A stretch of DNA of 64,000 nt, from IMG/VR virus record IMGVR_UViG_3300030104_003924, positions 6,647-70,646 of that record. One strand, given 5' to 3'. Shown here piece after piece: positions 600 through 40,746 of the stretch. The stretch's first letter is position 1. Every line of letters begins with the position of its first letter. The translations under genes were made by a program, and so were the position numbers. Below the pieces are notes generated by a model. That model made no database searches and was not told where the DNA came from. It worked only from the letters and a program-made list of their open reading frames with translations. The stretch comes from a virus.

Positions 600-633
600 T
601 ATATTATCCTACTTTATTCGTATTTATTTTGTA
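600..633 (-). promoter_or_regulatory. Promoter-like module, copy 1
   Basis: On the minus strand it reads TACAA, 4 nt, AATACGA, 9 nt, GATAATATA, and ends about 20 bases before the start of the 142-579 gene. Five other copies in this window keep the same two spacings exactly. Confidence 0.75.
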
Positions 634-699
634 TAAAACGAAGGTAATGCCGTTCTGAGCGTGTCTAGAAGACTCTTACTAGTACATTACTCTTCGTAT

Positions 700-1140
700 A
701 TTTGTAACTAGTGAGGAATCGAACCTCATACTCGTCAGTAATACCTTCAGTACTAATCAGCTCGTAAAAACGTTTACGTATTAGCACCTACTCCTGTATC
801 TAGTTTCCCGCTCCCAACAGCACGGATTGCATCGAGTACCCACAAAAAGGAGTACCGAGGATTACCGCTATCGCTTAAGGAGCTAGTGTCATGCGAGTAA
901 GATTGTGTTTACAATGGATTCCGTCCGACCGTTTATCTTTTGTAAATCACATACACGTCTCGCGCACACTATATTTGAGGTGGGGCAGGTGTGGTTCTAC
1001 CGAGTTTCGGTAAGCCGAGTTTCGGTTCTGCTTTATCCTGCCGTTTGTGTTACGCAAATAATATTGAGTTCAATAGTATAACTATAGTCGTCTTAGCTCA
1101 ACCAGTCCGGGCAACACATTACCACCCTCACCTCATTATT
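700..1140 (-). ncRNA. Probable structured noncoding RNA region with a tRNA-like T-arm
   Basis: No credible gene occupies about 600 bases here. By my count 781-1140 is about 46% G+C, far above the flanking A/T-rich genes. On the minus strand there is a perfect T-arm at 712-728: a 5-bp stem (TGAGG/CCTCA) closing the loop TTCGATT. A six-base stem GGCAGG/CCTGCC (984-989 with 1037-1042) encloses two copies of a small hairpin with CCGA/TCGG arms at 1000-1010 and 1015-1025. I could not fold a full cloverleaf: bases 705-711 pair imperfectly with 800-806, giving about 100 nt, too long for an ordinary tRNA. Possibilities are a tmRNA-like RNA, a divergent tRNA next to a large ornate phage RNA (GOLLD/ROOL-type), or decayed tRNA genes. 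Ends and strand are uncertain. Confidence 0.45.
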
Positions 1141-1175
1141 CGTACCATACTCCGTACACCTTAACTCCTTTTACT

Positions 1176-1343
1176 TCATTGTACAGTACTTTTTTCTTTA
1201 TTGGTTTTTCCTTTAACTGGCTTTTGTCCCAGTATTTTGGATTCTTGCTGTTTAGCTTTTTCTTTTTGCTCATATTCTTTCATTTTTCTGATTAATTTCT
1301 TATCTTGATCTTCTTTTGTGAAATATTCTATTATTCTTCTCAT
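1176..1343 (-). CDS. Short highly charged protein, unknown
   Basis: 55 codons, starting MRRIIEYFTKEDQDKKLIRK and very rich in K, E and Q; probably helical. Its ATG overlaps the TGA of the upstream gene (sequence ATGA at 1340-1343), the usual arrangement for translational coupling, which is the main reason to believe it. It lies between the 1340-1984 gene and the structured RNA region. Family not recognised. Confidence 0.5.
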   Translation of the reverse strand: MRRIIEYFTKEDQDKKLIRKMKEYEQKEKAKQQESKILGQKPVKGKTNKEKSTVQ

Positions 1344-1984
1344 ATTACTTTATATCTTTTACCATTTACTGTCACTGATAAATCGTTTAGCATTCCTTTG
1401 TAATCTACTTCGGCGGCCGCATAACCATTATTATACGCTTCATTATACTTGTCTTGTGTCAAATTATCACTTTCATACATCCACTTTGGATAAAACTCGC
1501 CATTTGGCACTTGATTAGCATTTTTTATGTAATAGTTTTTAACACAATACTTTATTAAATACTCTAGTCTATCTATTTCTATTGGTATTAGTACACAACC
1601 TCTTGTCTCGAACTTTCTGTACTTACCAGTCCATTTCTGAGTGTATTCACCGTTATCATGCCAAATAGTTTCATAATCTTTGAAATACATTGGTTCACTT
1701 TGACATCTCTTATTGAGTTGGTAGTTACTGTAACCACTATTTTGGTTACGCACATAACCTGTCTTGAAACTAGCCACTTCAATAAACTTAGGATTTTGTT
1801 CTGGCCAATTATTTTTTATTGGTAATCGCCAAACTATTGTACCATTTTTCTCTTGTCTTTTTGTGCTAACATCCTCAATACCAAGTAGTTGCATTTGCTC
1901 CCATACTTTTTCGTATCTAGTGTCACCTATATATTTCTCGTAATATCTTTGATTTTTCTCGTGTTCTTTATCGTATTTATTCAT
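1340..1984 (-). CDS. Conserved-looking hypothetical protein, Tyr/Asn/Lys-rich
   Basis: 214 residues without signal peptide or membrane segment, rich in Y, N, K and W. The N-terminal part (MNKYDKEHEKNQRYYEKYIG) is charged; the middle contains several aromatic clusters, and the end is GKRYKVI. It is the largest gene of the leftward cluster and has its own promoter-like module (1999-2032) just upstream. It is coupled by an ATGA overlap to the small downstream gene. I do not recognise it. Confidence 0.7.
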   Translation of the reverse strand: MNKYDKEHEKNQRYYEKYIGDTRYEKVWEQMQLLGIEDVSTKRQEKNGTIVWRLPIKNNWPEQNPKFIEVASFKTGYVRNQNSGYSNYQLNKRCQSEPMYFKDYETIWHDNGEYTQKWTGKYRKFETRGCVLIPIEIDRLEYLIKYCVKNYYIKNANQVPNGEFYPKWMYESDNLTQDKYNEAYNNGYAAAEVDYKGMLNDLSVTVNGKRYKVI

Positions 1985-1998
1985 ATTGTTTATTTATA

Positions 1999-2032
1999 TA
2001 TATTATCCTTTAGTGTTCGTATTTGTTTTGTA
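1999..2032 (-). promoter_or_regulatory. Promoter-like module, copy 2
   Basis: Same 34-bp architecture on the minus strand (TACAA, 4 nt, AATACGA, 9 nt, GATAATATA), 15 bases upstream of the start of the 1340-1984 gene. It overlaps the last codons of the upstream 59-aa gene, so the promoter is embedded in coding sequence. Confidence 0.75.
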
Positions 2033-2182
2033 ATCTAAACTTGCTTCAACACCCATTTTATGACCTTGAGCATAAGCTCTGTCCATAGCTTCCATTTTCA
2101 TTTGAACTATAGCTTCTCTCACTTCTTCTCTTATAATGGAATTAATAATCCACCTCTTTAATAGTATATCTACTTCTTCCAT
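2003..2182 (-). CDS. 59-aa hypothetical protein
   Basis: ATG at 2182, TAA at 2003-2005. The sequence begins MEEVDILLKRWIINSIIREE and is mostly amphipathic helix up to about residue 40. Its start lies inside the end of the upstream 2170-2382 gene (13-base overlap), which suggests coupled translation. Its last nine codons coincide with promoter-like module copy 2. Function unknown. Confidence 0.55.
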   Translation of the reverse strand: MEEVDILLKRWIINSIIREEVREAIVQMKMEAMDRAYAQGHKMGVEASLDYKTNTNTKG

Positions 2183-2382
2183 GTTCTTATTATTTCTTCG
2201 TTATCATGAGTCATCCACTCACAGTTTTGTAAATTATGACCAGCGTGAGTTAAAAACTCTTCACAACTCTCCTCGTCTGGGTCCCAACCAATGTAAGTAA
2301 AACCACTGTTTATTTTATATTGGAATACTTTTCCAACTTCAAAATCTAATACTGTTATTATATTTGCTATTTCTCTGTTCAT
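2170..2382 (-). CDS. 70-aa acidic hypothetical protein
   Basis: Begins MNREIANIITVLDFEVGKVF; the body contains GWDPDEESCEEFLTHAGHNL and ends in a charged helix. No export signal. It is the third gene of a leftward operon (2587-2760, 2388-2600, this gene, 2003-2182) that follows promoter-like module copy 3. Unknown function. Confidence 0.6.
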   Translation of the reverse strand: MNREIANIITVLDFEVGKVFQYKINSGFTYIGWDPDEESCEEFLTHAGHNLQNCEWMTHDNEEIIRTWKK

Positions 2383-2387
2383 ATTTA

Positions 2388-2600
2388 TTATTTTAATAGT
2401 GTTCCATAACCTCTTCGCTGAGTCATCTTGGATATGCGAGCAGCGTCACTGCTTGACATAATCTGTATGGAATTTCCGGTCTTGTGGTTTATAAGTGGAG
2501 CACAACCATATTGCTCGGTAGTTGAGCAGTCTACGCATACTTTGAACCCAAGAGTAACTCGGCCTTGAGGTATTAAATTATTACATTTACACTGCAACAT
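2388..2600 (-). CDS. Small C4 zinc-finger protein, DksA/TraR-like
   Basis: I choose the ATG at 2600 (70 aa) rather than the further upstream in-frame ATG, because the recognisable family part begins MLQCKCNNLIPQGRVTLGF and continues KVCVDCS. Cysteines in CxC ... IPxxR ... CxxC spacing resemble the zinc-binding C-terminal domain of DksA/TraR-type proteins, which bind the RNA polymerase secondary channel in bacteria. The C-terminal part (HKTGNSIQIM ... QRRGYGTLLK) is a tail I associate with phage members of this group. The start overlaps the end of the upstream gene by 14 bases. A role in modulating host transcription is inference from family resemblance. Confidence 0.55.
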   Translation of the reverse strand: MLQCKCNNLIPQGRVTLGFKVCVDCSTTEQYGCAPLINHKTGNSIQIMSSSDAARISKMTQRRGYGTLLK

Positions 2601-2760
2601 AAGTGAAGCCTTTATAGTTAAACCATTCAGTGATGTAAGAATTACCATCTTCATCCACTTCACCAAATCTAGTAGAAGCTAATTGGCAAACAGTGTATGG
2701 TTTATAAATTATTTGATTTAATTGAATGTAATTGTTTTTTAGAAATTTAATTTTGTTCAT
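2587..2760 (-). CDS. 57-aa hypothetical protein
   Basis: ATG at 2760, TAA at 2587-2589. It begins MNKIKFLKNNYIQLNQIIYK and ends WFNYKGFTYVAV. It is the first gene after promoter-like module copy 3, with an A/T leader of about 20 bases, and overlaps the zinc-finger gene by 14 bases in another frame. Family unknown; the promoter placement and gene overlap support it being real. Confidence 0.5.
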   Translation of the reverse strand: MNKIKFLKNNYIQLNQIIYKPYTVCQLASTRFGEVDEDGNSYITEWFNYKGFTYVAV

Positions 2761-2779
2761 ATTATATATTTTATTTGAT

Positions 2780-2813
2780 TATATTATCGTTCTATTGTCG
2801 TATTTGATTTGTA
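2780..2813 (-). promoter_or_regulatory. Promoter-like module, copy 3
   Basis: Minus-strand TACAA, 4 nt, AATACGA, 9 nt, GATAATATA, about 20 bases upstream of the 57-aa gene start. It heads a four-gene leftward operon. Confidence 0.75.
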
Positions 2814-2814
2814 T

Positions 2815-2880
2815 TTATTCGTCTAGTAAATAACTACCTATCATTATAGTTATTAATATTAGTATTATCCACGCTCCCAT
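2815..2880 (-). CDS. 21-aa single-span membrane micropeptide
   Basis: ATG at 2880 overlaps the TAA of the upstream gene as TAATG; stop TAA at 2815-2817. The peptide is MGAWIILILITIMIGSYLLD plus E: almost entirely one hydrophobic helix with an acidic end. The stop-start overlap and the fully hydrophobic composition argue that it is translated. A second such peptide occurs at 60664-60741. Possible roles (small holin- or antiholin-like peptide, membrane modulator) are guesses. Confidence 0.4.
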   Translation of the reverse strand: MGAWIILILITIMIGSYLLDE

Positions 2881-3137
2881 TAGTCTAAATTATCTCTATT
2901 TCCTGTTAATATTCCACTCTTTTTGTCTAATTCTATACAGTTAGCGATTGCATTTGCTAATAAATCTTGCGAGTTTTGACTATTAAACCAATCTTCCTTC
3001 TCCCACACGTAGTAAATCCACTCGTTCGCTTCATAAGCAGTTTCAAAGTAATTATCATATTTATTACCATAACTATCAGTTACTTTCGCGTGATACCAAG
3101 TATTATTATTCTTTCTTGTTATACTAAAATCTCTCAT
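2880..3137 (-). CDS. 85-aa hypothetical protein
   Basis: Begins MRDFSITRKNNNTWYHAKVT with alternating polar and aromatic residues typical of a small beta structure, then a Trp-rich stretch (NEWIYYVWEKEDW) and a helical C-terminus. No signal peptide. Follows the 3146-3385 gene by 8 bases and is coupled through TAATG to the 21-aa membrane peptide. Function unknown. Confidence 0.6.
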   Translation of the reverse strand: MRDFSITRKNNNTWYHAKVTDSYGNKYDNYFETAYEANEWIYYVWEKEDWFNSQNSQDLLANAIANCIELDKKSGILTGNRDNLD

Positions 3138-3145
3138 ATCTTATT

Positions 3146-3385
3146 TTATTTTAATAGTAGTTTATAATTTCCTTCTAAGTTTTTCACTCTTTCTTGTGCA
3201 AATTTCATTGCTGATTCAAGAGTATAAAATCCAGCAGAGCTAGTTGAGTAATATCCTACAACATCAGTGATTACTCTTACTATGAACCAATCAGTATGTG
3301 ACTCTAATGATACCACTCTTATTTCTTTCTTATTCTCTTGTCGTGGAATAGAGAACCACAAGTCTTTTAATTCATTTCTAGTCAT
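3146..3385 (-). CDS. 79-aa hypothetical protein
   Basis: Begins MTRNELKDLWFSIPRQENKK; the pattern is helix, three or four beta strands (IRVVSLE, WFIVRVITDVVGYY), then a C-terminal amphipathic helix. No export signal. It sits between the exported 3401-3676 protein and the 2880-3137 protein in the same leftward operon. Not recognised. Confidence 0.6.
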   Translation of the reverse strand: MTRNELKDLWFSIPRQENKKEIRVVSLESHTDWFIVRVITDVVGYYSTSSAGFYTLESAMKFAQERVKNLEGNYKLLLK

Positions 3386-3400
3386 AATTTCTATATTTTA

Positions 3401-3676
3401 TTAATTATTTTTAGTATAAGCGAGGTATAATTCTTCACGCATTAGTGTTAACCAATAGTTACTTCCCCATTGTTCTTCATAAGAACCACAAGAGCAATCT
3501 TCACCATTGTATTGAGCTTCTTCAATATCTTGTTGTTGCCACTCAAGTATATCATCTATAGTGGCTATCATTTCTCTCACTTCCCACTTTGTTAATTCTA
3601 CTTTTGGCTCACTCATTTGCCCATAACTCATTCCTGCAATTAATAGTGCTGCAACACTCATTTTGATTTTCTTCAT
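3401..3676 (-). CDS. Small exported protein with signal peptide
   Basis: 91 residues. The start MKKIKMSVAALLIAGMSYGQ is a clear Sec signal peptide with a probable cleavage before or after Gln-20; the mature part is acidic, with WEVREMIATIDDILEWQQQD and a CxC pair (EDCSCG), ending in an aromatic helix (YWLTLMREELYLAYTKNN). Small exported proteins of this kind recur in phages of marine Bacteroidota as I know them, but their function is not established. It would act in the periplasm or at the envelope. First protein gene downstream of the tRNA-like element. Confidence 0.65.
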   Translation of the reverse strand: MKKIKMSVAALLIAGMSYGQMSEPKVELTKWEVREMIATIDDILEWQQQDIEEAQYNGEDCSCGSYEEQWGSNYWLTLMREELYLAYTKNN

Positions 3677-3699
3677 AATTTTAATTTATTGTTTATATT

Positions 3700-3818
3700 G
3701 TAGTGTGGAGTAGAATCGAACTACTAATAACCATTCACACTTATCGACTAAACGACATGATACATTCGCATTTTTTATAACTCGCTAAACGTTATTCAAC
3801 TACGAGTTGAGACACTAC
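3700..3818 (-). ncRNA. tRNA-like element with a perfect T-arm
   Basis: On the minus strand, 3709-3725 is a T-arm (stem AGTAG/CTACT, loop TTCGATT). The outer ends pair perfectly over seven bases (GTAGTGT at 3818-3812 with ACACTAC at 3706-3700), like an acceptor stem. A D-arm-like CTCG/CGAG stem lies near the 5' end. Against an ordinary tRNA: two unpaired bases lie between T-arm and acceptor, I see no convincing anticodon arm, and the length is about 119 nt. It could be a divergent tRNA with a long variable arm, a decayed tRNA, or a tRNA-mimic RNA or processing signal between 3872-4102 and 3401-3676. Confidence 0.4.
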
Positions 3819-3871
3819 ACGCTAATAAGCACTTCACGTGGAGTTACTACTTCTCAGATTTCTACTACTAA

Positions 3872-4102
3872 TTATAGCGCTAATTCTCTGCAGAATGCTG
3901 GAATTGCATTACTATTAGTGTATGATTTGTACTTAGCAAAACAATTCATTGCTTCAAATCTTTCTTTATGTGCATTATACACTTCATCATGATTATATGA
4001 TACTTTTTCTTGTTTTTTGTTTACAAAAGTTATAATTGTATTTTTACCGATTAATGACTTTCTGATTACAAATCTTTTTGTTTCTAATTTACTTACTGAC
4101 AT
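3872..4102 (-). CDS. 76-aa basic hypothetical protein
   Basis: Begins MSVSKLETKRFVIRKSLIGK and continues as a likely beta hairpin (NTIITFVNKKQEKVSYN) followed by a helical region with two cysteines. No export signal. It is the first sizeable leftward gene after the divergent region and follows promoter-like module copy 4 with a leader of about 40 bases. Unknown function. Confidence 0.6.
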   Translation of the reverse strand: MSVSKLETKRFVIRKSLIGKNTIITFVNKKQEKVSYNHDEVYNAHKERFEAMNCFAKYKSYTNSNAIPAFCRELAL

Positions 4103-4141
4103 AGTTTTATTTATTTAATTATTATTTATTTTATTTACATT

Positions 4142-4175
4142 TATATTATCTACATTGAGTCGTATTTACATTGTA
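4142..4175 (-). promoter_or_regulatory. Promoter-like module, copy 4, closest to the T7 promoter
   Basis: Minus strand TACAA, 4 nt, AATACGA, 9 nt, GATAATATA. From AATACGACTCA onward, 15 of 17 bases match the T7 class III promoter from -16 to +1, and the G of GATAAT falls exactly where the T7 +1 G would be. Confidence 0.75.
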
Positions 4176-4193
4176 TAAAAGTATACTAATTGT

Positions 4194-4259
4194 TTAATTG
4201 ATATTATTAGTTAGTATGTATTGCTCTGCGACTCTCACTGTGTAATTGTTATTTAGCAT
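4194..4259 (-). CDS. Possible 21-aa leader peptide
   Basis: A 21-codon frame (MLNNNYTVRVAEQYILTNN and two more residues) starts about 20 bases after promoter-like module copy 5 and stops before module copy 4. The only support is its position directly behind a promoter; a short noncoding leader RNA is equally possible. Confidence 0.25.
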   Translation of the reverse strand: MLNNNYTVRVAEQYILTNNIN

Positions 4260-4280
4260 TTGTTTGTTTGTATTTACATT

Positions 4281-4314
4281 TATATTATCCAACAACAGTC
4301 GTATTAATATTGTA
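4281..4314 (-). promoter_or_regulatory. Promoter-like module, copy 5
   Basis: Minus strand TACAA, 4 nt, AATACGA, 9 nt, GATAATATA, with TTAATACGACT matching the T7 promoter core. It is the outermost leftward copy and lies 25 bases from the rightward copy 6, forming a divergent pair. Confidence 0.75.
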
Positions 4315-4339
4315 AAATAAAAATGTGAAAATATATAAA

Positions 4340-4373
4340 TACAATTTAATTACGAAAAGAAATAGATAATATA
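4340..4373 (+). promoter_or_regulatory. Promoter-like module, copy 6, the only rightward copy
   Basis: Plus strand TACAA, 4 nt, ATTACGA (one mismatch to AATACGA), 9 nt, GATAATATA. Spacing is identical to the leftward copies. It points toward the late block, whose first gene starts about 260 bases downstream. Confidence 0.65.
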
Positions 4374-4636
4374 AATATGAAAAGCAAAACGCAAACGAAA
4401 TTGTAAAACGAAGACAAAAATAGCGGGACCGGGCGAAAAAAAGCTGATTTAAATGGGGGAGGGGGCCCCAAAAAAGGAAAAGCAACGCTTGACCCCAATG
4501 TTTGCAATATCCCGAGGTACCGGTACCTTTATATATAAGTACCCGTATATGTGACATAAGGTAGTTAAATATTATTAGTAACACCCTATTGTCACACTTT
4601 TGTAAATAATCACTTTACTATGTGATAATAAAGAAT
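4374..4636 (+). other. Divergent intergenic region with GC island and palindrome
   Basis: About 260 bases with no convincing gene. It holds a G-rich tract followed by GGGGCCCC (4455-4469), a GC patch at 4425-4435, a perfect 14-bp palindrome AGGTACCGGTACCT (4515-4528) and an inverted repeat TATGT-G-ACATA (4548-4558), with related TGTCACA and TATGTGATA words nearby (4590-4627). These look like protein-binding sites near a divergent promoter. They could form an operator, a packaging start or a replication origin; I cannot choose between these from sequence. Confidence 0.4.
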
Positions 4637-4903
4637 ATGAGAAACTCACCACTATTAGGATTTATAAAGAAGAACTGTAGATGCACTGGTCCTTGCCAAT
4701 GTCTTTCAACGGAAGGGTATAAAAGGAATTCACCGGATGTTAAAAAGAAGATGAATATTATACCATCTGGAGACATAACTATGAAGGGTGTTGATTTCAA
4801 AGTTAGAGGTGAAGATAATCTTGGTAACGTAAAGATTATGAAACCAGGTAAGAATTACAAATTTCCTGGAACTATAGTAAAGGAAACCAAATACAAGAAA
4901 TAA
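4637..4903 (+). CDS. Small basic protein with N-terminal NSPL tag
   Basis: I choose ATG 4637 (88 aa) over the upstream in-frame GTG, because the protein then begins MRNSPLLGFIKKNCRCTGPC, placing the SP-L motif at the N-terminus as in the other tagged proteins. Residues 12-20 carry a C-x-C-x3-C-x-C cysteine cluster that could bind metal. The rest is basic (VKKKMNIIPSGD, MKPGKNYKFPGTIV). First gene of the rightward block. Function unknown; possible virion-associated or DNA-associated protein. Confidence 0.55.
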   Translation: MRNSPLLGFIKKNCRCTGPCQCLSTEGYKRNSPDVKKKMNIIPSGDITMKGVDFKVRGEDNLGNVKIMKPGKNYKFPGTIVKETKYKK

Positions 4904-28301: not shown

Positions 28302-31300
28302 ATGCCTGAAATGAAACACAACTTTCAGAGAGGTCGAATGAATAAAGACCTTGACGAGAGACTAGTACCAGATGGTGAGTATAGAGACGCGTTGAATATT
28401 GAGGTGTCTACCTCGAATGACTCTAATCTTGGAACTGTACAAACCCTTAAAGGTAATTTATTTCTTCCAGGTCAATTACAAAGTGGTACCTGTATTGGTT
28501 CTATAGCTAACGATAGAGTTAATAAATTATACTTCATGGTTGCTGGTGATACTAGAGATGTTATAGTTGAATATGACTATGATACAGAAACATTTTTACC
28601 GGTATGCGTTGATAATCATGCGCAACAAGGTGTTAGAGCGTTAAACTTTAATTCTGACTTTTTAATTACAGGTATTAATATTATTGAAGATTTATTATTT
28701 TGGACGGACAACAACTCTGAGCCTAAAAGAATAAACATAACAAGAGGAAAAGCGGGTAGTTCTAACTGGACTACCCATACTAGTTTAATGGTAACTGATA
28801 CTTCGGTTAACGCGGCTCCCAACGCGCTCGTTAACACAGGTAAACCCATAGAAGAACAACATTTAACGGTTATAAAAAAAGGACCGCCAGCTGCCCCGGT
28901 TTTAGAGATGATCGATACTTCGTTTGGTGATGAAGATGGCGATGGAGATGTTGGTGGTGACGAGTTAAATAGAGAGTGTACTGTTGGGATGGGTGGAACT
29001 ATGGATCAGTTTGTAGATATAAATACTGGTCAAATTGCTGCTGGTAGTCAAATAGTGATAAGTGTAGTTGGTGATTTAGACGGGGATACCGGTTATCAAG
29101 CTGGTACTGATTTTGTGGCTGGAGATTACATAATTGTCTACGCTTGGGACGACACTTCTGTTAAGGTTAGGTTAAAAGTTGTTAGTGGCGGTTCTATTGG
29201 TTATACTTGTAAAATATTATCTGGGGACATAGAGATAACAGATTACGAAAGATTAATGGTAAAACTCGAGCAAAAAGATCCTCTTTTTCAGTTTAAATTT
29301 GTAAGATTTGCTTGTAGATATAAATATGAAGACGGGGAATACTCAGCGTTTTCACCTTTTACCCAGCCAGCCTTTTTACCTGGAAAATTTAACTATGTAC
29401 CAAAGGAGGGCTATAATCTTGGTATGTTTAATAATTTAAGAAAACTAGCTATAAGAGATTTTGTACATGATAGACAAATAACCGATGATGTTGTTGCTAT
29501 TGACATTTTGTATAAAGAATCAAATTCTCCTAATATTTACTCTGTAAAAACTATAAAAAAAAGAGACTATAACCAAAACAAATGGGACGAGTGGAATGGT
29601 ATATCTAGCACTGAACTTTTAAACCCAGCTAATGCATCGTACTGGAACAACACTAAAGGTAGGGTTAAAGGATATATGCCTATATTAACAGAGTTAATAC
29701 ACGCTGTTCTACCTGCAAACCAACTGCTTAGACCTTGGGATAATGTTCCTAGAAAAGCTCTAGCTCAAGAGGTGATAGGAAATAGATTGGTTTATGGTAA
29801 CTATTTACAAAATTATAATTTTCAAAATTCTAATAATAGTCATATAAAAGTAGATATACAAACAACCCTACATAGCGCTACCGTTGGTGATCAATTTCCT
29901 CAAGAATTACCCGTTGGTTTATTGGACCACATGGAGTATAATCCTGCTAAATCCATTAAATCACTTAGAACTTATCAAGTAGGTGTTGTTTATTTAGATG
30001 AATATGGAAGAGAAACGCCTGTTTTTTCTGAAGACAAGCAGGGCACTAGTAATGCAAGTAATGTAACAACTCAATCTTCTATATATATAGAAAAGGTTAA
30101 AGCGCCTAAAAGAAACGCCTTGCAGGTAACAATGAGAAACAACCCGCCAAGTTGGGCTACCCACATGAAGTTTTTTATTAAAGAAACATCTAACGAGTAT
30201 TACAATTTATGTATGGACCGTTGGTATGACGCTGAAGATGGTAATATTTGGCTATCATTTCCAAGTGCTGACAGAAATAAAGTAGATGAAGAAACTTTTT
30301 TGATACTTAAAAAAGAACATGATAATAGTGAGTTTGTTCACGAGCCTGGTAGGTATAAAATTATAGCTATAGAAAACGAAGCGCCTAGATTTATTAAACT
30401 ACAAAATATTTCCATGGGTTCTATTGTTGATTTCTATGACAACTCTGATCCAGCAAATGCTTTTTGGCAATTAGGACCAAACGCAAATGGTTTTCCAGGA
30501 TCTTCAAGTAGTAGTTTACACTCTTTTCAAGTTAACGTGCATAAAACAGCGTTTGAAGCAGCTGGTTGGAAAGAAAGTTTGATAAATCAAGATATATCTC
30601 AATGTTTTTTTAGAATGGTTGGAGCAGGTGTTGGTACTAGTAAATGGTACAGAGTAAAACAAATTACTTGGGACGGTGGAGATGGAACATATGTTATAAA
30701 ATCCGGAAAACAGTTTGGTGGAGATATGGAGTTTACATCTGCAGATGGTACATATCTCAATAGATTAACAAATTTGGAGTTACAAGTAATGAAAAAAATA
30801 CCTGAAGACAGAGCAGAGTTTGACGGTAGATTTTTCGTAAAAATATTAAAAGATGGAACGTTAATAAATAGACTTGGTATTAGTTCTACGGTACAAGATA
30901 ATTTAGTTGTAACCGCTAGTATGAGAGTTCAGTATATATCTCCATTTGCAGAACATCAACCTAGTGGAGGTTGGCATGGCTACGGCACTGAACAGTATAA
31001 AATATCTATTGACTCTGGTAGTGGTAGTCACGAATTTCACCCACCTGGTTATGACGGTGGTGATGGCCAAAAATTTTGGAAAATGGCTGGAGATGACGAA
31101 GACTCAGCTTCTACTAGTGCTTCTTCTGGTTGGTTTATAGATAAAGTTGAGGCTTTTAGACCGTTAAAAGGATCAGTCAAGCATTTTATTGGGTTTGCTA
31201 ATGAGGATAAAGTTAAATGGACCGCTGCTCAAAGCTCTGATAGTGTTAACTGGCAGTATGATTGGGGTAATCCTATAAAAAAATTATTACAAGCAACTGG

Positions 31301-34300
31301 TATTGGTACATACGGATATGGTAGTGGTAATTATTTAGACATGGGTATAAAAGGACCTCCTTCATCACTAACGTCGCAACACGACGTTTCTAAAAGTCAC
31401 GGTATTAATAAAGACATTGGTTTGATACATCTTTCTTATGCTGGTTTAAATACGTCTGAGAGTGGTGGTAATTATTCTGGGGCAAGTGATGGTTATAGTA
31501 ATGATAATTGGGACTTCAAGCAAGGCGCTAAGCATAGTATTGATTTAGCATTTATTGATAAAATTAGAGAAGCAGGTACAATATGGAGGTGGCGAGAAGA
31601 TCCGGGTCAAGTTGTATATAGAACCATAGTTGGAACAGCGGATAATCAAGCGAGTAATTATACCGCAGCCATGATGGGTAGAGAAAAAATGGATAGAGAC
31701 GGCGGGTGGGGAGTTTTTCTTTATAATTACGCTAAAATTAATGATTATATTATAGAAGATCACCATTGTCACTCCGCAAAATGTTGTGGAATTCAAAACC
31801 ACTGGTGGAAAACAGATTTTGGAAGTAGAAACATTAGTGATACAAGTTGTTCAGGTTGTAGTCTTGGTTTTAGCGCTTGTTGTTGGACTGGTTACAGTCT
31901 TGAAGTATCTCTAAGTGATTTAACGGGACACGGTGGTACGGGTGGCGCTGGAGCATGGGACACAAGCGCTTGGATTAGCACTTTTGGTCAATGGCCTGTA
32001 CATAGAAAATTTCCAACTGGTATTCACGATTGGCAGACTTGTTATAATAGACGTAGAAGATTTGCTATTTTTGCAGAGGTTTTAGAAACAGGTGGCAAAA
32101 TAGGCTCTGTTGGTCCGCATTATTACTCTCCAACAAACGATCCAAAGCTACCACCACACTTCGATGTTAACGCAAATCCTATAACAGCCTTTCCAACTGG
32201 ACACGCTTTAGCCGGTCAAACTTTTGAATCACAAGGTTCTATAGCCCCTGGTATTAGACCAGATGGTATGTATTCTGGGTATAATAATCACCCAGGTGGA
32301 CCTTATACTTTTGATAAAGGAGATGGAAATGGTGCTCAATCAATAGATCAAATACCAGAGTTCAAACGTTGGGACGCTAACCACGCTACTAATAACATGG
32401 CTCCTAGACAATCTGGAGAGCCTGGTAGTGTTACTTTTGAAATTTTAGAACACTTTGAAGAAGATTCTGAGAAATTTACTAGCACAAACCCAGCTATATG
32501 GGAGACAGAACCAAAAGAAGATGTTGGATTAGACATATATCACGAAGTAGGACAAATATACCCTATATATCTTAATAATGACACTATAGAACAATTTGTT
32601 GGGCCAGTCCATATAGATATATCGCGCAACTCCTATGTCCAATGTTGGGACCCTCCATACGCACCGGGTAACAACGGTGGAACTATAAACTTAGCAGTAA
32701 ACGGAATTAGAGATGTAAGGGTATTAGCTGCTAAAAATAATTATGTTCGTTTAGGTGTCGTGCAGGGCAACGCTTGGATAGCTCCAGAAGTTTATATGGA
32801 TATAACTGGTGGTGGTTATCCTTCTATAGTTCCTCCTATTGGTTCTTATTTAATATTTCACAGAGCAGATGGAGGTAGAACAGAAGCGCACGTTGGTCCA
32901 AATACTTACACGGTTCCGGGAGAAGGAACTTGGTTTGAGTTAGTTGGAATGCCTGGCGAAGTTGGTGTTCATAGTAAACAAATAAGATTACCTTGGTATA
33001 ATTGCTATTCTTTTGGTAATGGTGTAGAATCTGATAGAATAAGAGATGATTTTAATCAAGTTACAATAGATAATGGACCAAAAGCATCTACAACATTAGA
33101 GCAACCATATTTAGAGGAAAGAAGAACAAATGGGTTTATATGGTCAGGTTTATATAATTCAACGAGTGGTGTTAATGATTTAAACCAATTTATTGCGGCT
33201 GAAAAAATAACTAAAGATACAAACCCTTCTTATGGTAGTATTCAAAAATTACACGCTAGAGATTCGGACCTAGTTGCTTTTTGTGAAGATAGAGTTTTAA
33301 AAGTATTTGCAAATAAAGACGCTTTATATAACGCTGATGGAAATCAAAATTTAGTATCTACAAATAGAGTTTTAGGTAATATAAGACCTTTTATTGGCGA
33401 TTACGGTATATCTTTAAACCCAGAATCATTCGCTTCTGATTCACATAGAGCATATTGGTCTGATTCAAGTAGAGGTGCTATCCTTAGATTATCTCAAGAT
33501 GGTATCACGGCGATATCACAAGCTGGAATGGATGATTTCTTTTCTGATCATTTAGCTGAAACAGGAAATTACAATATAATTGGTAGCTTTGACGATGACA
33601 AAGGTGAGTATAATATTACGTTAGAATCAATACTTTATAATTATGAGGCTCCAGTTGGCCCATGTGGAACTGGTACTTCAGTGGTAGGTGGCACTACAAC
33701 TACAACTACAGCCACAACCGTTTTAAATGACGGTCCAACACCAACCCCAGGGAATCCTCTTGGTGATTACCAAAGATATGGTGGTGCTGTAGATGCGTGG
33801 GCAACGTATATGGAGAGCGGCGGAACTTGTACTAATTGGTGGGTAAATCAAAGCACGGGTGTTGGACAGTGCGTGCAAAACATTGGTTTAGCCGCTATAC
33901 CACAAAACACTATCGGAGGTGGAAGCACTGGTACGTCTAATTTTTACAACCATCAAAGAGGCTGGGCTGGTATACAAGGCGGTAGCAACCACCCAGTAGG
34001 CGTAGGGCACGGCCAACAAGGTCTTATAGCGAATCAAGATTTAACAAATCCTATAACGCTCTGGTTTAACAAGATAACGTGTGGACATGGGGCTGCTCCT
34101 GCAATAGATGCCACTTCTAATTTCGACGCTTTAATATTAGCTTTAAACAACAATGGGCCTGGTAACGTTTATTTATATCAAACACATAGAAACGCTAACT
34201 ACTCTCTGTATGCTTCTTCTTGGGCTGGATATACTCAAAACTGGCCTAACAACTGGCCTCACGCACATCAACCAGAAACTATTTATTCTATACAAAGTAT

Positions 34301-37064
34301 AAGTTACGATGCAACTACGGAGGCTTATGAACTTGTTGTTGATTGGTTAGTTGGTTATAGTGGTTTTTCAGATTTTAATACTTTCGTTTGGTCTTTAGAA
34401 GGACCAGGAGGAGGAAACGGGAACACAACGTCCACGTCAACTGTTCAAAGCATGATTAGTGATGTTAATTATACTCTATCTTTTAGCGAAAGAAGTAAAG
34501 GTTGGGTTTCTTTCAAATCTTGGAATCATGAAAATGGAATAAGTTTAAACAATAGTTATTATACGTTTAAAAACGGGATGATGTATCAACATCACATCAA
34601 TGAAACTCATAATAATTTTTATGGAAATCAATTCGAATCATCTATAGACGTTCTTTTAAACAAAGCCCCTGGAAGTGTTAAAAGCTATTCTACATTTAAT
34701 TACGAAGGTTCACAAGCTAGAATAACACCTGGTATAAACAATAATCCAGATTACTATGACAACCTTCCTAAAGACGGTTGGTATATAGATAATGCTTATT
34801 CTGACGCACAAGAACTAGGTAATTTAGAATTTTGGGATAAAGAAAACAAATGGTTTGCCCAAGTAAAAGGTGTTACTACGCAGTGGTTAAACGATGGAAC
34901 CGCTGGTAATATAGATCCTAGAGAGTTCTCTTTCCAAGGCATTGGTAATTCTTACGCGGTTAGTTGCCCAAAGTGTCCAACTGTATCAACTTGGGATTGC
35001 GTTGTTGGTAATAACGGTTGCGAGTGTCAGCCTGTAGCTGGAAGTGGGGGTCAGTTTGCTACACTAGATGAGTGCAGATGTTCTACTACTTGTTGCGGTG
35101 AAGATTATACTCAACCATCTTATACTTGTGATGGTCAAGGTTTCTGTACTGATCCTGGTGATGGCAGTGGTCAATATTCAACTTATTGTGATTGTGTTGA
35201 AAATAGTATGTGCTGTAACGAGGGTGTTGCTTATACGTATGGGTGTGGATCTAACTTAACACAACCTTCTAGTTATATATTTGGTTGTATGGATGACGGT
35301 TTAACAACAGATCCTTTTATAACACAGCAACGACCTTTTGGATGGGTTGGACCAGCAACAACCTACAACTCAAACGCAAATGTTCATAGTTGTGATTGTA
35401 ATTACAATACCGCTCAAAGCTGGGATTGTATAAAAGGTGATTGTGTAGAAATATTTAACGGAACAGGTCAATATCCTAGTTTGCTTGATTGTACTAATGA
35501 TTGTGGAATTGATATTAATCCTTGTGATAACCAAAATATGGGATTACAAAAAATTGTAGTAAACCCAACAGCTATTGGAGGTGGTGATATACCTTGTTCT
35601 CAAACGGCTAGTGATGGCTCTGTTAGTATAATGGTTACTAACCAAAACTCAACATCTCCAACACCTTTCACCCATTGGACCATGGAAATATATGACTCTG
35701 ATTGGAGTGGTGGTTCTCCCACCGTGGGTAATCTTGTATATGCAGATCCAAATACTTACACAGTTGGTTCTTGGTCTAATGTTTACGTTGGACTAACTAC
35801 TATACCTGCGGGTTCAACAGGATTTAACATTTATTATATAAAAGTTACTGATAATAACGGCTGTGATTATGGGCCTTTTACTATAAGAGTTAACTGTAAC
35901 GATACAGCTATCGATCCTTGTGACAGTTATCCTGGAGACATGAATTTTACTTATCAAGGACATAGCGGAACGTGTTGTGGTAGGTGTAATACAATCTTGA
36001 ATTCACCTTATGGTTCACTTCATCCTTGTTATGACTTTTGTGAAGAATGGGTTGGTTGTTGCGAATCTGTTTACACACCTGATCCATGCGAGTGTGATCT
36101 TGATAATCATCCTATGGGCGCTACACCGTGGGATCCTGTAGCATCTCAATATCTGAGTTACATGGTGGGTTATGTTGTAGAATGGCAGGGTAATTTCTAT
36201 CATATGCTATCGACTGGTTTAAATATAGCTCCTGATCAAGCTGGTTCTAAATGGCAACTTTGTACATCTACATGTGGTGTTTATGATCCAAACGCGCTTG
36301 ACCCTACTGATCCTTACGTAGGTATGAATCTTACTGATTTTGTTTTAACAGGAGATGGAACCACAAACGCAACTCCTGCGGACGAAGATCCTGCTCTTGA
36401 TAATGTATTAACGTTTGACGATCTTTTAGGTAGTGGTAGTACAGATCCTTGTAACGGCCTACCTTCTGGAACTATTAATGCTTGGTCAACTTACACTGTT
36501 GGTGCTCCTTTCAACTATTCTGTCAACTGTGAGTTTAATACAGAATTATCTTATTTACCACCAATGTCATATAATAATGGTCACGATTACGGGGAAATAC
36601 TTAAGTGGCTTAGTAAGCTTAGCAACGGTTGGACTAGTGTAGATACTAGAACCACTAGACAATGTTTAAAATCTAATTTTACTTATCTCCAATCTTTACA
36701 GGGCTTAATTGATAGTGACCATTGTCCTTGTACAACTAGTGATGGCTTGCAAGGTTCTTGGTATACAGAGTTTACTTTTAGACATTCCAGAGATTTCTTT
36801 ATTAATTCAAATGGAGCGTGGGAAGCTCAAAACACTATAACAGAATGGTCATGGCAAGATTTTGTTAACGCTTGTTTAGCCACGGGTGATCCTATATACT
36901 CTGGAATGGCGGTTGGTTTAGATTGGGATCAAACACACGCTTTGTGGAATCAAAACTGGTCAAATTTAGGTTCGCCACAGTCTTACGTTGGTCCTTTTAC
37001 TCCTGGTATGGTTAAACCAATGGACAAGGGAATGAGCCATTGTCATTGTGAAACTTGTCCTTAA
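28302..37064 (+). CDS. Giant tail/adhesion protein
   Basis: 2,920 residues. The N-terminus (FQRGRMNKDLDERLVPDGEY then RDALNIEVSTS and LGTVQTLKGN) resembles the first propeller blade of nozzle-type tail proteins, so it may be the tail nozzle/hub. The middle is beta-rich with many Trp and Gly. About residues 2223-2403 hold Cys-rich repeats with WDCxxGxC ... GxGQYxxLxxC; about 2606-2656 resemble a CBM5/12 chitin-binding fold (YVVEWQGNFYHML ... PDQAGSKWQLC). A Thr-rich linker (TTTTTTATT) separates parts near residue 1800. I infer a fused tail and glycan-adhesion protein; domain calls are visual. Confidence 0.65.
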   Translation: MPEMKHNFQRGRMNKDLDERLVPDGEYRDALNIEVSTSNDSNLGTVQTLKGNLFLPGQLQSGTCIGSIANDRVNKLYFMVAGDTRDVIVEYDYDTETFLPVCVDNHAQQGVRALNFNSDFLITGINIIEDLLFWTDNNSEPKRINITRGKAGSSNWTTHTSLMVTDTSVNAAPNALVNTGKPIEEQHLTVIKKGPPAAPVLEMIDTSFGDEDGDGDVGGDELNRECTVGMGGTMDQFVDINTGQIAAGSQIVISVVGDLDGDTGYQAGTDFVAGDYIIVYAWDDTSVKVRLKVVSGGSIGYTCKILSGDIEITDYERLMVKLEQKDPLFQFKFVRFACRYKYEDGEYSAFSPFTQPAFLPGKFNYVPKEGYNLGMFNNLRKLAIRDFVHDRQITDDVVAIDILYKESNSPNIYSVKTIKKRDYNQNKWDEWNGISSTELLNPANASYWNNTKGRVKGYMPILTELIHAVLPANQLLRPWDNVPRKALAQEVIGNRLVYGNYLQNYNFQNSNNSHIKVDIQTTLHSATVGDQFPQELPVGLLDHMEYNPAKSIKSLRTYQVGVVYLDEYGRETPVFSEDKQGTSNASNVTTQSSIYIEKVKAPKRNALQVTMRNNPPSWATHMKFFIKETSNEYYNLCMDRWYDAEDGNIWLSFPSADRNKVDEETFLILKKEHDNSEFVHEPGRYKIIAIENEAPRFIKLQNISMGSIVDFYDNSDPANAFWQLGPNANGFPGSSSSSLHSFQVNVHKTAFEAAGWKESLINQDISQCFFRMVGAGVGTSKWYRVKQITWDGGDGTYVIKSGKQFGGDMEFTSADGTYLNRLTNLELQVMKKIPEDRAEFDGRFFVKILKDGTLINRLGISSTVQDNLVVTASMRVQYISPFAEHQPSGGWHGYGTEQYKISIDSGSGSHEFHPPGYDGGDGQKFWKMAGDDEDSASTSASSGWFIDKVEAFRPLKGSVKHFIGFANEDKVKWTAAQSSDSVNWQYDWGNPIKKLLQATGIGTYGYGSGNYLDMGIKGPPSSLTSQHDVSKSHGINKDIGLIHLSYAGLNTSESGGNYSGASDGYSNDNWDFKQGAKHSIDLAFIDKIREAGTIWRWREDPGQVVYRTIVGTADNQASNYTAAMMGREKMDRDGGWGVFLYNYAKINDYIIEDHHCHSAKCCGIQNHWWKTDFGSRNISDTSCSGCSLGFSACCWTGYSLEVSLSDLTGHGGTGGAGAWDTSAWISTFGQWPVHRKFPTGIHDWQTCYNRRRRFAIFAEVLETGGKIGSVGPHYYSPTNDPKLPPHFDVNANPITAFPTGHALAGQTFESQGSIAPGIRPDGMYSGYNNHPGGPYTFDKGDGNGAQSIDQIPEFKRWDANHATNNMAPRQSGEPGSVTFEILEHFEEDSEKFTSTNPAIWETEPKEDVGLDIYHEVGQIYPIYLNNDTIEQFVGPVHIDISRNSYVQCWDPPYAPGNNGGTINLAVNGIRDVRVLAAKNNYVRLGVVQGNAWIAPEVYMDITGGGYPSIVPPIGSYLIFHRADGGRTEAHVGPNTYTVPGEGTWFELVGMPGEVGVHSKQIRLPWYNCYSFGNGVESDRIRDDFNQVTIDNGPKASTTLEQPYLEERRTNGFIWSGLYNSTSGVNDLNQFIAAEKITKDTNPSYGSIQKLHARDSDLVAFCEDRVLKVFANKDALYNADGNQNLVSTNRVLGNIRPFIGDYGISLNPESFASDSHRAYWSDSSRGAILRLSQDGITAISQAGMDDFFSDHLAETGNYNIIGSFDDDKGEYNITLESILYNYEAPVGPCGTGTSVVGGTTTTTTATTVLNDGPTPTPGNPLGDYQRYGGAVDAWATYMESGGTCTNWWVNQSTGVGQCVQNIGLAAIPQNTIGGGSTGTSNFYNHQRGWAGIQGGSNHPVGVGHGQQGLIANQDLTNPITLWFNKITCGHGAAPAIDATSNFDALILALNNNGPGNVYLYQTHRNANYSLYASSWAGYTQNWPNNWPHAHQPETIYSIQSISYDATTEAYELVVDWLVGYSGFSDFNTFVWSLEGPGGGNGNTTSTSTVQSMISDVNYTLSFSERSKGWVSFKSWNHENGISLNNSYYTFKNGMMYQHHINETHNNFYGNQFESSIDVLLNKAPGSVKSYSTFNYEGSQARITPGINNNPDYYDNLPKDGWYIDNAYSDAQELGNLEFWDKENKWFAQVKGVTTQWLNDGTAGNIDPREFSFQGIGNSYAVSCPKCPTVSTWDCVVGNNGCECQPVAGSGGQFATLDECRCSTTCCGEDYTQPSYTCDGQGFCTDPGDGSGQYSTYCDCVENSMCCNEGVAYTYGCGSNLTQPSSYIFGCMDDGLTTDPFITQQRPFGWVGPATTYNSNANVHSCDCNYNTAQSWDCIKGDCVEIFNGTGQYPSLLDCTNDCGIDINPCDNQNMGLQKIVVNPTAIGGGDIPCSQTASDGSVSIMVTNQNSTSPTPFTHWTMEIYDSDWSGGSPTVGNLVYADPNTYTVGSWSNVYVGLTTIPAGSTGFNIYYIKVTDNNGCDYGPFTIRVNCNDTAIDPCDSYPGDMNFTYQGHSGTCCGRCNTILNSPYGSLHPCYDFCEEWVGCCESVYTPDPCECDLDNHPMGATPWDPVASQYLSYMVGYVVEWQGNFYHMLSTGLNIAPDQAGSKWQLCTSTCGVYDPNALDPTDPYVGMNLTDFVLTGDGTTNATPADEDPALDNVLTFDDLLGSGSTDPCNGLPSGTINAWSTYTVGAPFNYSVNCEFNTELSYLPPMSYNNGHDYGEILKWLSKLSNGWTSVDTRTTRQCLKSNFTYLQSLQGLIDSDHCPCTTSDGLQGSWYTEFTFRHSRDFFINSNGAWEAQNTITEWSWQDFVNACLATGDPIYSGMAVGLDWDQTHALWNQNWSNLGSPQSYVGPFTPGMVKPMDKGMSHCHCETCP

Positions 37065-39644: not shown

Positions 39645-40052
39645 ATGGCATTAGTAACACTAACATTTAACCATCAATTAAACGTATCTGTACAAGTAGG
39701 AGATACCGCTTATTATATTTCTACAGCTCCTTTTCCAGGGCAAACAGCTGGACAAAATGGAAACTGGGCATCAACCACAACGCCTCATGATACTGGTAAT
39801 AGAGAAGACATTAGAATGATAGGCGTTATAACCGCTATTACAGCTAACACTATAGAGTGTGATATGCCGCCGAATTTAGCTAGTCAATATGGCCCACCTA
39901 ACCCTAATGACTTTATTATGTTTAGCAAAGACAACAAGGCTAATTTAAGCAGTTTACTAGGTTATTACTGTTTGACTAAGCTTAAAAATAATTCAACTGA
40001 AGAAGCAGAACTATTTACTATTGCAGCAGATTTCTTAGAAAGTAGTAAATAA
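39645..40052 (+). CDS. Conserved virion protein
   Basis: 135 residues beginning MALVTLTFNHQLNVSVQVGD, with DTAYYISTAP and NDFIMFSKDNKANLSSLLGY in the second half. It looks like a compact beta protein; similar short proteins occur next to tail genes in marine phages I know of. No function assigned. Confidence 0.55.
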   Translation: MALVTLTFNHQLNVSVQVGDTAYYISTAPFPGQTAGQNGNWASTTTPHDTGNREDIRMIGVITAITANTIECDMPPNLASQYGPPNPNDFIMFSKDNKANLSSLLGYYCLTKLKNNSTEEAELFTIAADFLESSK

Positions 40053-40092
40053 TTGATAAAAAATGTAATTATAAACACATAAAAATTATATT

Positions 40093-40746
40093 ATGAGTAA
40101 AAATATTAAAAGTAGTCCCTTAAAAATTCTTGGTGGTTTAATATCAGCTGCTGGAGCATACGATTGGGGTGGTAAAAGAAAAAAAGCCATAGCCGCGGCT
40201 CAAGAAGAATACGATCAAATGAAAACCCAGTTCATGGGATTAGATACTAGTAATTTATACGGTGATGTTTCTAATCCATATGCTAATATGCAAAATACAA
40301 TGGAAGACCTTACTGTAAACCAACAGCAAGCGCAGTTTGAGGCACAGCAAAACCAACAAAACCAAGCTAATATACTTGGTTCTATGAGAGGAGCAGCTGG
40401 TAGCTCTGGTGTTGCTGGTTTAGCACAAGCAATGGCTAATCAAGGTGCAACACAAGCCCAAAGAGCTTCAGCATCGATCGGTCAACAAGAAGCAGCCAAC
40501 CAAGCTAAGCAAGCTGAGATGGCTGGATCATTACAAAAAATGGAAAGACAAGGAGATTGGAAAGCTGACATGACTAGACGTGCTGGAGCGGAACAATCTA
40601 GATCTTTAGAAAAAGACAAGGTAAATACTTTGTTTACTATGTCTGCTAATAAACTTGGAACGGCGGAAGCACAACACCAAAAAGCACAAGATCAAATGTG
40701 GAGCGGTATTGGTGAAATGTTTAGCCCAACTGGAGGATTATTTTAA
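40093..40746 (+). CDS. Ejection/internal virion protein candidate
   Basis: 217 residues. Starts MSKNIKSSPLKILGGLISAA, so an SPLK motif lies at residues 8-11 ahead of a short hydrophobic segment. The rest is a Gln/Ala/Met-rich helical protein (QQQAQFEAQQNQQNQAN; SGVAGLAQAMANQGATQAQR), a composition typical of small internal ejection proteins of podoviruses. It precedes two further proteins that could be co-ejected. Confidence 0.5.
   Translation: MSKNIKSSPLKILGGLISAAGAYDWGGKRKKAIAAAQEEYDQMKTQFMGLDTSNLYGDVSNPYANMQNTMEDLTVNQQQAQFEAQQNQQNQANILGSMRGAAGSSGVAGLAQAMANQGATQAQRASASIGQQEAANQAKQAEMAGSLQKMERQGDWKADMTRRAGAEQSRSLEKDKVNTLFTMSANKLGTAEAQHQKAQDQMWSGIGEMFSPTGGLF

Follow-up and report, generated by a model that had tools for sequence, protein, structure and literature searches.

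A rigid promoter module in a clade of uncultured podophages and a phage-encoded sigma factor as its probable reader

Boxes for activators such as PhoB and T4 MotA can replace the −35 element of a promoter. At T4 middle promoters the MotA box is centred near −30 and takes the place of the −35 element at a near-fixed distance from a sigma-type −10. Some podophages encode sigma-70-family factors (gp47 of phage 7-11, gp36 of phiEco32) that redirect the host core polymerase to phage promoters with the consensus GTAAtg-(16)-aCTA or a single tAATGTAtA, and transcription starts 6–9 base pairs (bp) from the element (PMC8948821). E. coli sigma28 promoters have the form TAAAGTTT-N11-GCCGATAA (PMC2859248), and promoters of the Bacteroidetes primary sigma carry TAnnTTTG / TTTG (PMC7366714). 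Here we describe a repeated 34-bp module, designated class I, in a 64,000-nucleotide (nt) stretch (the window, G000:C1:6647-70646) of the 79,494-base virus record IMGVR_UViG_3300030104_003924. The module has the features of a sigma-type promoter, and a sigma factor encoded by the phage is its probable reader.

The initial annotation had placed six copies of the module in gene leaders of the window, one of them with a mismatch. A window scan reproduced these positions exactly (Table 1): five copies are perfect, the plus-strand copy has one mismatch, and no further copy was found in the window at up to three mismatches. The chance expectation from dinucleotide shuffles was 0.03 modules per window, and six were reached in no shuffle. 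The full 79.5-kilobase (kb) record contained nine matches, against none for a reversed-pattern control. Three matches fall outside the window: two represent a single site, seen in each haplotype's version of the record end, and the third is intragenic. The position in leaders was upheld, and from the predicted start sites described below the leaders of copies 1, 2, 3 and 4 measure 17, 11, 16 and 36 nt. A divergent class I copy was seen in 6 of the 18 boundary regions examined. A near-perfect copy lies inside the exonuclease gene (G000:1719-1752, minus strand), where it encodes TEYEQPGII; GATAATAGA copies resembling it occur in several relatives, and the site may represent an internal promoter or a coding coincidence.

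To define the module, 610 distinct copies were reduced to 342 non-redundant ones, which gave the profile TACAAACTAAATACGA-N9-GATAATAta-N3-Y-R (Y, pyrimidine; R, purine). The rigid spacing noted in the initial annotation extends to the whole set: TACGA-N9-GATAATA occurred in 492 copies, and the N8 and N10 versions in none. In loci chosen by the sigma gene alone, 114 copies had N9 and none had N8 or N10. The TACAA earlier singled out as an upstream element is present, but is really half of a tandem repeat with an 11-bp period, TACAA-N6-TACGA in the window copies and TACRA-N6-TACRA in general; in L023, L031 and L032 a genome-wide G-to-A change affects most copies of the second repeat. The start region had been taken to be constant, which holds for GATAATA but not for its last two bases (TA, AT or AA).

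A transcription start could be predicted from the same profile. The base 12 nt past the G of GATAAT (index 37) is a purine in 337 of the 342 copies (98.5%), compared with about 61% elsewhere, and in 81% the base before it is T or C. An ATG begins exactly at index 37 in 50 copies, 46 of which head open reading frames (ORFs) of at least 35 amino acids (aa), compared with one copy each at positions 36 and 38. Copies without an ATG at index 37 still have a purine there in 98.3% and a pyrimidine-purine step in 78%. The simplest reading of this purine and ATG signature is that index 37 is the transcription start (+1), and that a subset of class I mRNAs would be leaderless, with the ATG at the predicted +1. 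Because the predicted +1 lies 12 nt past the G, GATAAT occupies −12 to −7, the place of the bacterial −10 element, and the repeats fall at −37 to −33 and −26 to −22. As in sigma-70-type −10 elements, A stands at −11 and T at −7, about 6 nt ahead of the purine start. In place of a −35 hexamer with a flexible spacer of 15–19 bp there is a 16-bp tandem repeat at a single spacing, and we therefore file class I as a variant and not as an ordinary sigma-70 promoter. TACRA-N6-TACRA replacing the −35 element at a fixed N9 is also the layout of an activator box. These statements on anatomy and start position, like those below on phage specificity and co-occurrence with a sigma gene, are drawn from sequence statistics.

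The string AATACGA followed by nine bases and a G has the form of the T7 promoter from −16 to +1. Together with the rigid spacing, this had suggested a T7-like single-subunit phage RNA polymerase, encoded outside the window, that would start at the G of GATAAT. The agreement of copy 4 with the T7 promoter at 15 of 17 bases stands, but represents the tail of a distribution, the nine spacer bases being unconserved over the 342 copies. In the T7 frame, positions −9 to −1 carry 1.1–2.0 bits each in 17 T7 promoters and 0.05–0.24 bits in the phage module. The start signature maps 12 nt beyond the proposed G, and the purine and the sharp ATG peak would go unexplained under the T7 reading, which fails. 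PF00940 (T7/N4-type polymerase) gave no match at E-values up to 10 in our record and 25 related records, although the positive controls were matched (T7, 1e-109; both N4 enzymes, 1e-14 and 0.007), and the phage encodes a sigma factor instead. We consider reading by a T7-like polymerase extremely improbable. If a virion RNA polymerase were injected, either of crAss-like type or concealed in a 2,996-aa protein, it would provide the reader that class I sites need at time zero; the phage does encode giant proteins without assigned function, and a tail protein carries a crAss muzzle domain. Nevertheless, PF00623 (multisubunit beta-prime) was unmatched in ten records while all 14 controls were positive, and the catalytic subunit g066 of crAss phage phi14:2 used as a query gave nothing significant among the ORFs. 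A catalytic-motif scan of the 2,996-aa protein found a single DVDGD, which is not conserved, and the sigma-type −10 and start site point to the host core enzyme. A virion polymerase is thus very unlikely; if there is one, it might be a strongly diverged enzyme within the 2,996-aa protein.

The rigid tandem repeats, and the divergent pair located at a skew switch, could also belong to an operator or replication site that is not a promoter at all. Such a site would not account for the orientation of the copies toward the following gene, their position in leaders, the start signature or the leaderless ATGs, and is scarcely credible. From these features class I is almost certainly a promoter, and its geometry is very probably of the sigma type.

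The sigma-70-family factor is encoded outside the window (Table 1). The gene matched the PHROG sigma family (PHROG 351) with an E-value of 5e-18; its matches to Pfam sigma regions 2 and 4 fell slightly short of the cut-off. A profile of the family aligned in the PDB with SigA/RpoD, and with Aquifex FliA (1rp3) over regions 2–4, most of its length. The predicted model (predicted local distance difference test, pLDDT, 75) matched SigA/RpoD chains in Foldseek with an E-value of 5e-6; its whole-chain template modelling (TM) score was low, presumably reflecting a different placement of the domains. Residues G106 and R109 are invariant in 27 sequences and, in an alignment placed by hand, fall at Q437 and T440 of sigma70, which we take to be the residues that read −12. 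An arginine at this position fits the invariant G at −12 of class I. In one relative the sigma frame (G046:55767-56520) is disrupted at several points by stop codons or changes of frame. The gene for a 204-aa protein with a C-terminal helix-turn-helix (HTH) adjoins the sigma gene in 54 of 55 loci. Its model is confident (pLDDT 87), and a PDB fold search with it gave no significant match.

Sigma gene and motif were found together. A sigma search of IMG/VR gave 25 records, chosen by this gene alone, and the motif was present in all 25 and the reversed pattern in none. An independent scan for the motif only gave 117 stretches; 49 of these records were tested for sigma, and 38 contained it. The 11 without sigma were all shorter than 54 kb, and sigma was present in each of the 24 motif-bearing records of at least 58 kb. 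The class I switch is common to a minimum of about fifty related, uncultured phages. Motif and sigma are both missing from MW202828, phi38:1, phi13:2, elemoB, Gundel_1 and Calle_2, six relatives that are cultured or named. A total of 257 gigabases (Gb) of contigs from bacteria and archaea contained the exact core in no more than 26 stretches. Many of these belong to metagenome-assembled genomes of Bacteroidota, and repeats were confined to two contigs of about 20 kb each. With so few matches, the module is a phage signal and not a host regulon with this consensus. The view of the initial annotation that it is a rigid, phage-specific promoter is well supported by leader position, start-site signature, conservation across dozens of relatives and an almost complete absence from genomes of bacteria.

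We propose the following mechanism. GATAATA would act as the −10 element, with G at −12, A at −11 and T at −7, and transcription would start at the purine 12 nt past the G, some genes being leaderless there. The tandem TACRA-N6-TACRA at −37 to −22 would replace the −35 element at a fixed distance. The reader would be the host core RNA polymerase with the phage-encoded sigma-70-family factor. Contacts to the upstream box would come from sigma region 4, from a DNA-binding partner made by the phage, or from the two together; the 204-aa HTH protein is a candidate for the partner. That the sigma factor reads these sites, that it uses the host core and that a partner has a role are what we infer. 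A phage sigma is favoured by its co-occurrence with the motif, by a −10 unlike the host TAnnTTTG, and by G106/R109 together with the invariant G at −12, and we put the probability that it reads class I on the host core at roughly 60%. Binding of a second factor to the upstream box is possible, at slightly less than even odds.

Several observations weigh against a phage sigma as the reader. Class I sites stand ahead of the first leftward genes, some 8 kb before transcription would reach sigma, and those genes would be transcribed before sigma is made. A search of the early/late boundary for host-type TTG/TAnnTTTG promoters gave scattered, chance-like matches, none of which stands out. The association of sigma with the motif comes from one phage clade, so that shared ancestry alone could produce it. 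The first box base is C instead of T in every copy (30/30) of L013, L014, L017 and L019, yet the sigma factors of L012 (8/8 T) and L013 (10/10 C) are 95% identical. No column of the sigma or HTH proteins tracks this shift cleanly, nor does any gene or protein similarity among 12 genomes, and no covariation of the HTH protein with box changes was seen. Three of the four C genomes share one gene, whose product does not look like a DNA-binding protein. Such concerted, genome-wide shifts suggest a trans-acting reader whose specificity changes; since no compared phage protein follows them, the box may well be bound by a partner or by a host component. A second promoter class, lying beside sigma and before the late operon, could be the true target of the sigma factor.

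Part of this evidence would be explained if the host holoenzyme, with the host sigma, read the −10 while a phage or host activator on the TACRA repeats replaced the −35, leaving only the second class to the phage sigma. In its favour, activator boxes that stand in for a −35 are arranged like the 11-bp-period repeat at −37 to −22, and class I sites are found ahead of the earliest genes. The concerted T-to-C shift is not mirrored in sigma, and the second class, with its ordinary sigma70 geometry, stands beside sigma and before late genes. On the other hand, GATAATA differs from the TAnnTTTG that the primary sigma of Bacteroidetes calls for at −7 (PMC7366714); the full motif is not repeated in any host genome, and the two contigs with more than one hit are about 20 kb; and for the only conserved activator candidate, the 204-aa HTH protein, neither a fold match nor a link to the box was found. 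We regard this arrangement as possible but unlikely. Whichever enzyme is used, the cascade must start from weak host transcription, from an injected sigma or partner, or from host recognition. Packaging and injection of sigma, alone or with the 204-aa HTH protein, would allow the earliest genes to be transcribed from promoters closed to host sigma, but is decidedly unlikely; if true, a virion sigma factor would stand in for a virion RNA polymerase, and the tandem TACRA box would serve as its private substitute for the −35.

The second class, TGTAAA-N14-TGTRATNAT, is also rigid, with 90 raw matches compared with at most 14 at other spacings. Its geometry is that of ordinary sigma70 promoters, with 17-bp spacing, a TG-extended −10 and some leaderless starts. 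The inverted repeat just upstream of the late operon's copy is kept in many relatives and folds with a z-score of about −3 to −4; an operator, an origin and a leader structure are candidates for its role.

Table 1. Positions of predicted promoters and associated features (window coordinates, unless prefixed by a record or locus name)
Feature	Position	Strand	Remarks
Class I, copy 1	600..633	−	predicted +1 at 596; gene ATG at 579
Class I, copy 2	1999..2032	−	predicted +1 at 1995; gene ATG at 1984
Class I, copy 3	2780..2813	−	predicted +1 at 2776; ATG at 2760
Class I, copy 4	4142..4175	−	predicted +1 at 4138; gene ATG at 4102
Class I, copy 5	4281..4314	−	predicted +1 at 4277; ahead of 21-codon ORF
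Class I, copy 6 (divergent, one mismatch)	4340..4373	+	predicted +1 at 4377, which is the A in the start codon (ATG) of a 9-codon ORF
Second class	4601..4629	+	directly before first gene of rightward structural operon, ATG at 4637
Second class-like site (one mismatch)	40044..40072	+	before late gene at 40093
Second class site	G000:2505-2533	−	directly after sigma, before erf
Inverted repeat TGTGACA-N-AGCCT...AGGC-N-TGTCACA	4550..4596	+	conserved; just upstream of second-class promoter of late operon
Sigma-70-family factor, 252 aa	G000:2542-3300 (= L009:2542-3300)		outside window; second-haplotype copy L010:6073-6831
204-aa protein, C-terminal HTH	L009:3407-4021	−	just upstream of sigma

The ends of the record (G000:1-5955 and about 73361-79494) are 76–90% identical over about 6 kb, and are two diverged haplotypes of one region, probably from a strain mixture at the closure of the circle. 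The record would then cover a circular or terminally redundant genome of about 73.5 kb essentially completely, so that the absence of a gene can be judged. By terminase and portal this aquatic phage groups with podophages of Flavobacteriia: identity is 46% to the Flavobacterium elemo phages, 38–39% to Cellulophaga phi13:2 and phi38:1, and 64% to the uncultured MW202828. Bacteroidota is the likely host phylum, from these Flavobacteriia-type relatives. The motif-bearing block on the minus strand contains small genes, ligase, the 204-aa HTH protein, the sigma factor, Erf, exonuclease and primase-helicase, and the plus-strand block contains the structural genes. A 2,920-aa structural protein (window 28302-37064) has an N-terminal crAss muzzle domain, and the terminase groups with non-crAss podophages. 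In one haplotype the DNA ligase ORF (L010:8140-9093, minus strand) is extended in frame at its N-terminal end by a stretch that looks like a Tat signal peptide. Window positions 640-1190, 2388-2590 and 3700-3870 contain no clear genes. Parts of the first and last of these resemble T-arms of transfer RNA (tRNA) on the minus strand (GAGGTTCGATTCCTC, GTAGTTCGATTCTAC), but neither ARAGORN nor Rfam recognised a convincing tRNA in the gene-poor stretches, and no Rfam family was found in the first 10 kb.

Promoters, predicted start sites and partly leaderless mRNAs can thus be defined to the base, from sequence alone, in a widespread clade of uncultured Bacteroidota-type podophages. They point to a phage sigma that overrides the host polymerase through an unusual promoter code, and raise the question of what reads class I promoters before sigma is made. 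If confirmed, the sigma factor and its rigid promoter would form an orthogonal expression pair for Bacteroidota.

Compared with described systems, class I shares with T7 late promoters the AATACGA string and the nine bases to a G, but its spacer is unconserved, its start site lies elsewhere and no polymerase gene was found. The likely host phylum is that of the Bacteroidetes primary-sigma promoters, and the module contains neither TAnnTTTG nor TTTG. The GATAA core recalls sigma28 promoters, as does the alignment of the phage sigma profile with Aquifex FliA; the module lacks GCC before GATAA, and its upstream element and spacing are different. Like T4 middle promoters, class I has a phage-specific box in place of the −35 ahead of a sigma-type −10, but the box sequence differs, being a tandem 11-bp repeat, and no MotA homologue was identified. 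Phages 7-11 and phiEco32 are likewise podophages with a sigma-70-family factor and a −10-type element. As in regulons of that kind, the sigma is phage-encoded, and here sigma and motif occur together in one clade only. The difference lies in GATAATA with a 16-bp tandem-repeat box at fixed spacing, in Bacteroidota-type phages; the comparison is one of kind, with the sigma factor placed through PHROG 351. Class I is accordingly filed as a variant of phage sigma-type promoters and not as a separate category.

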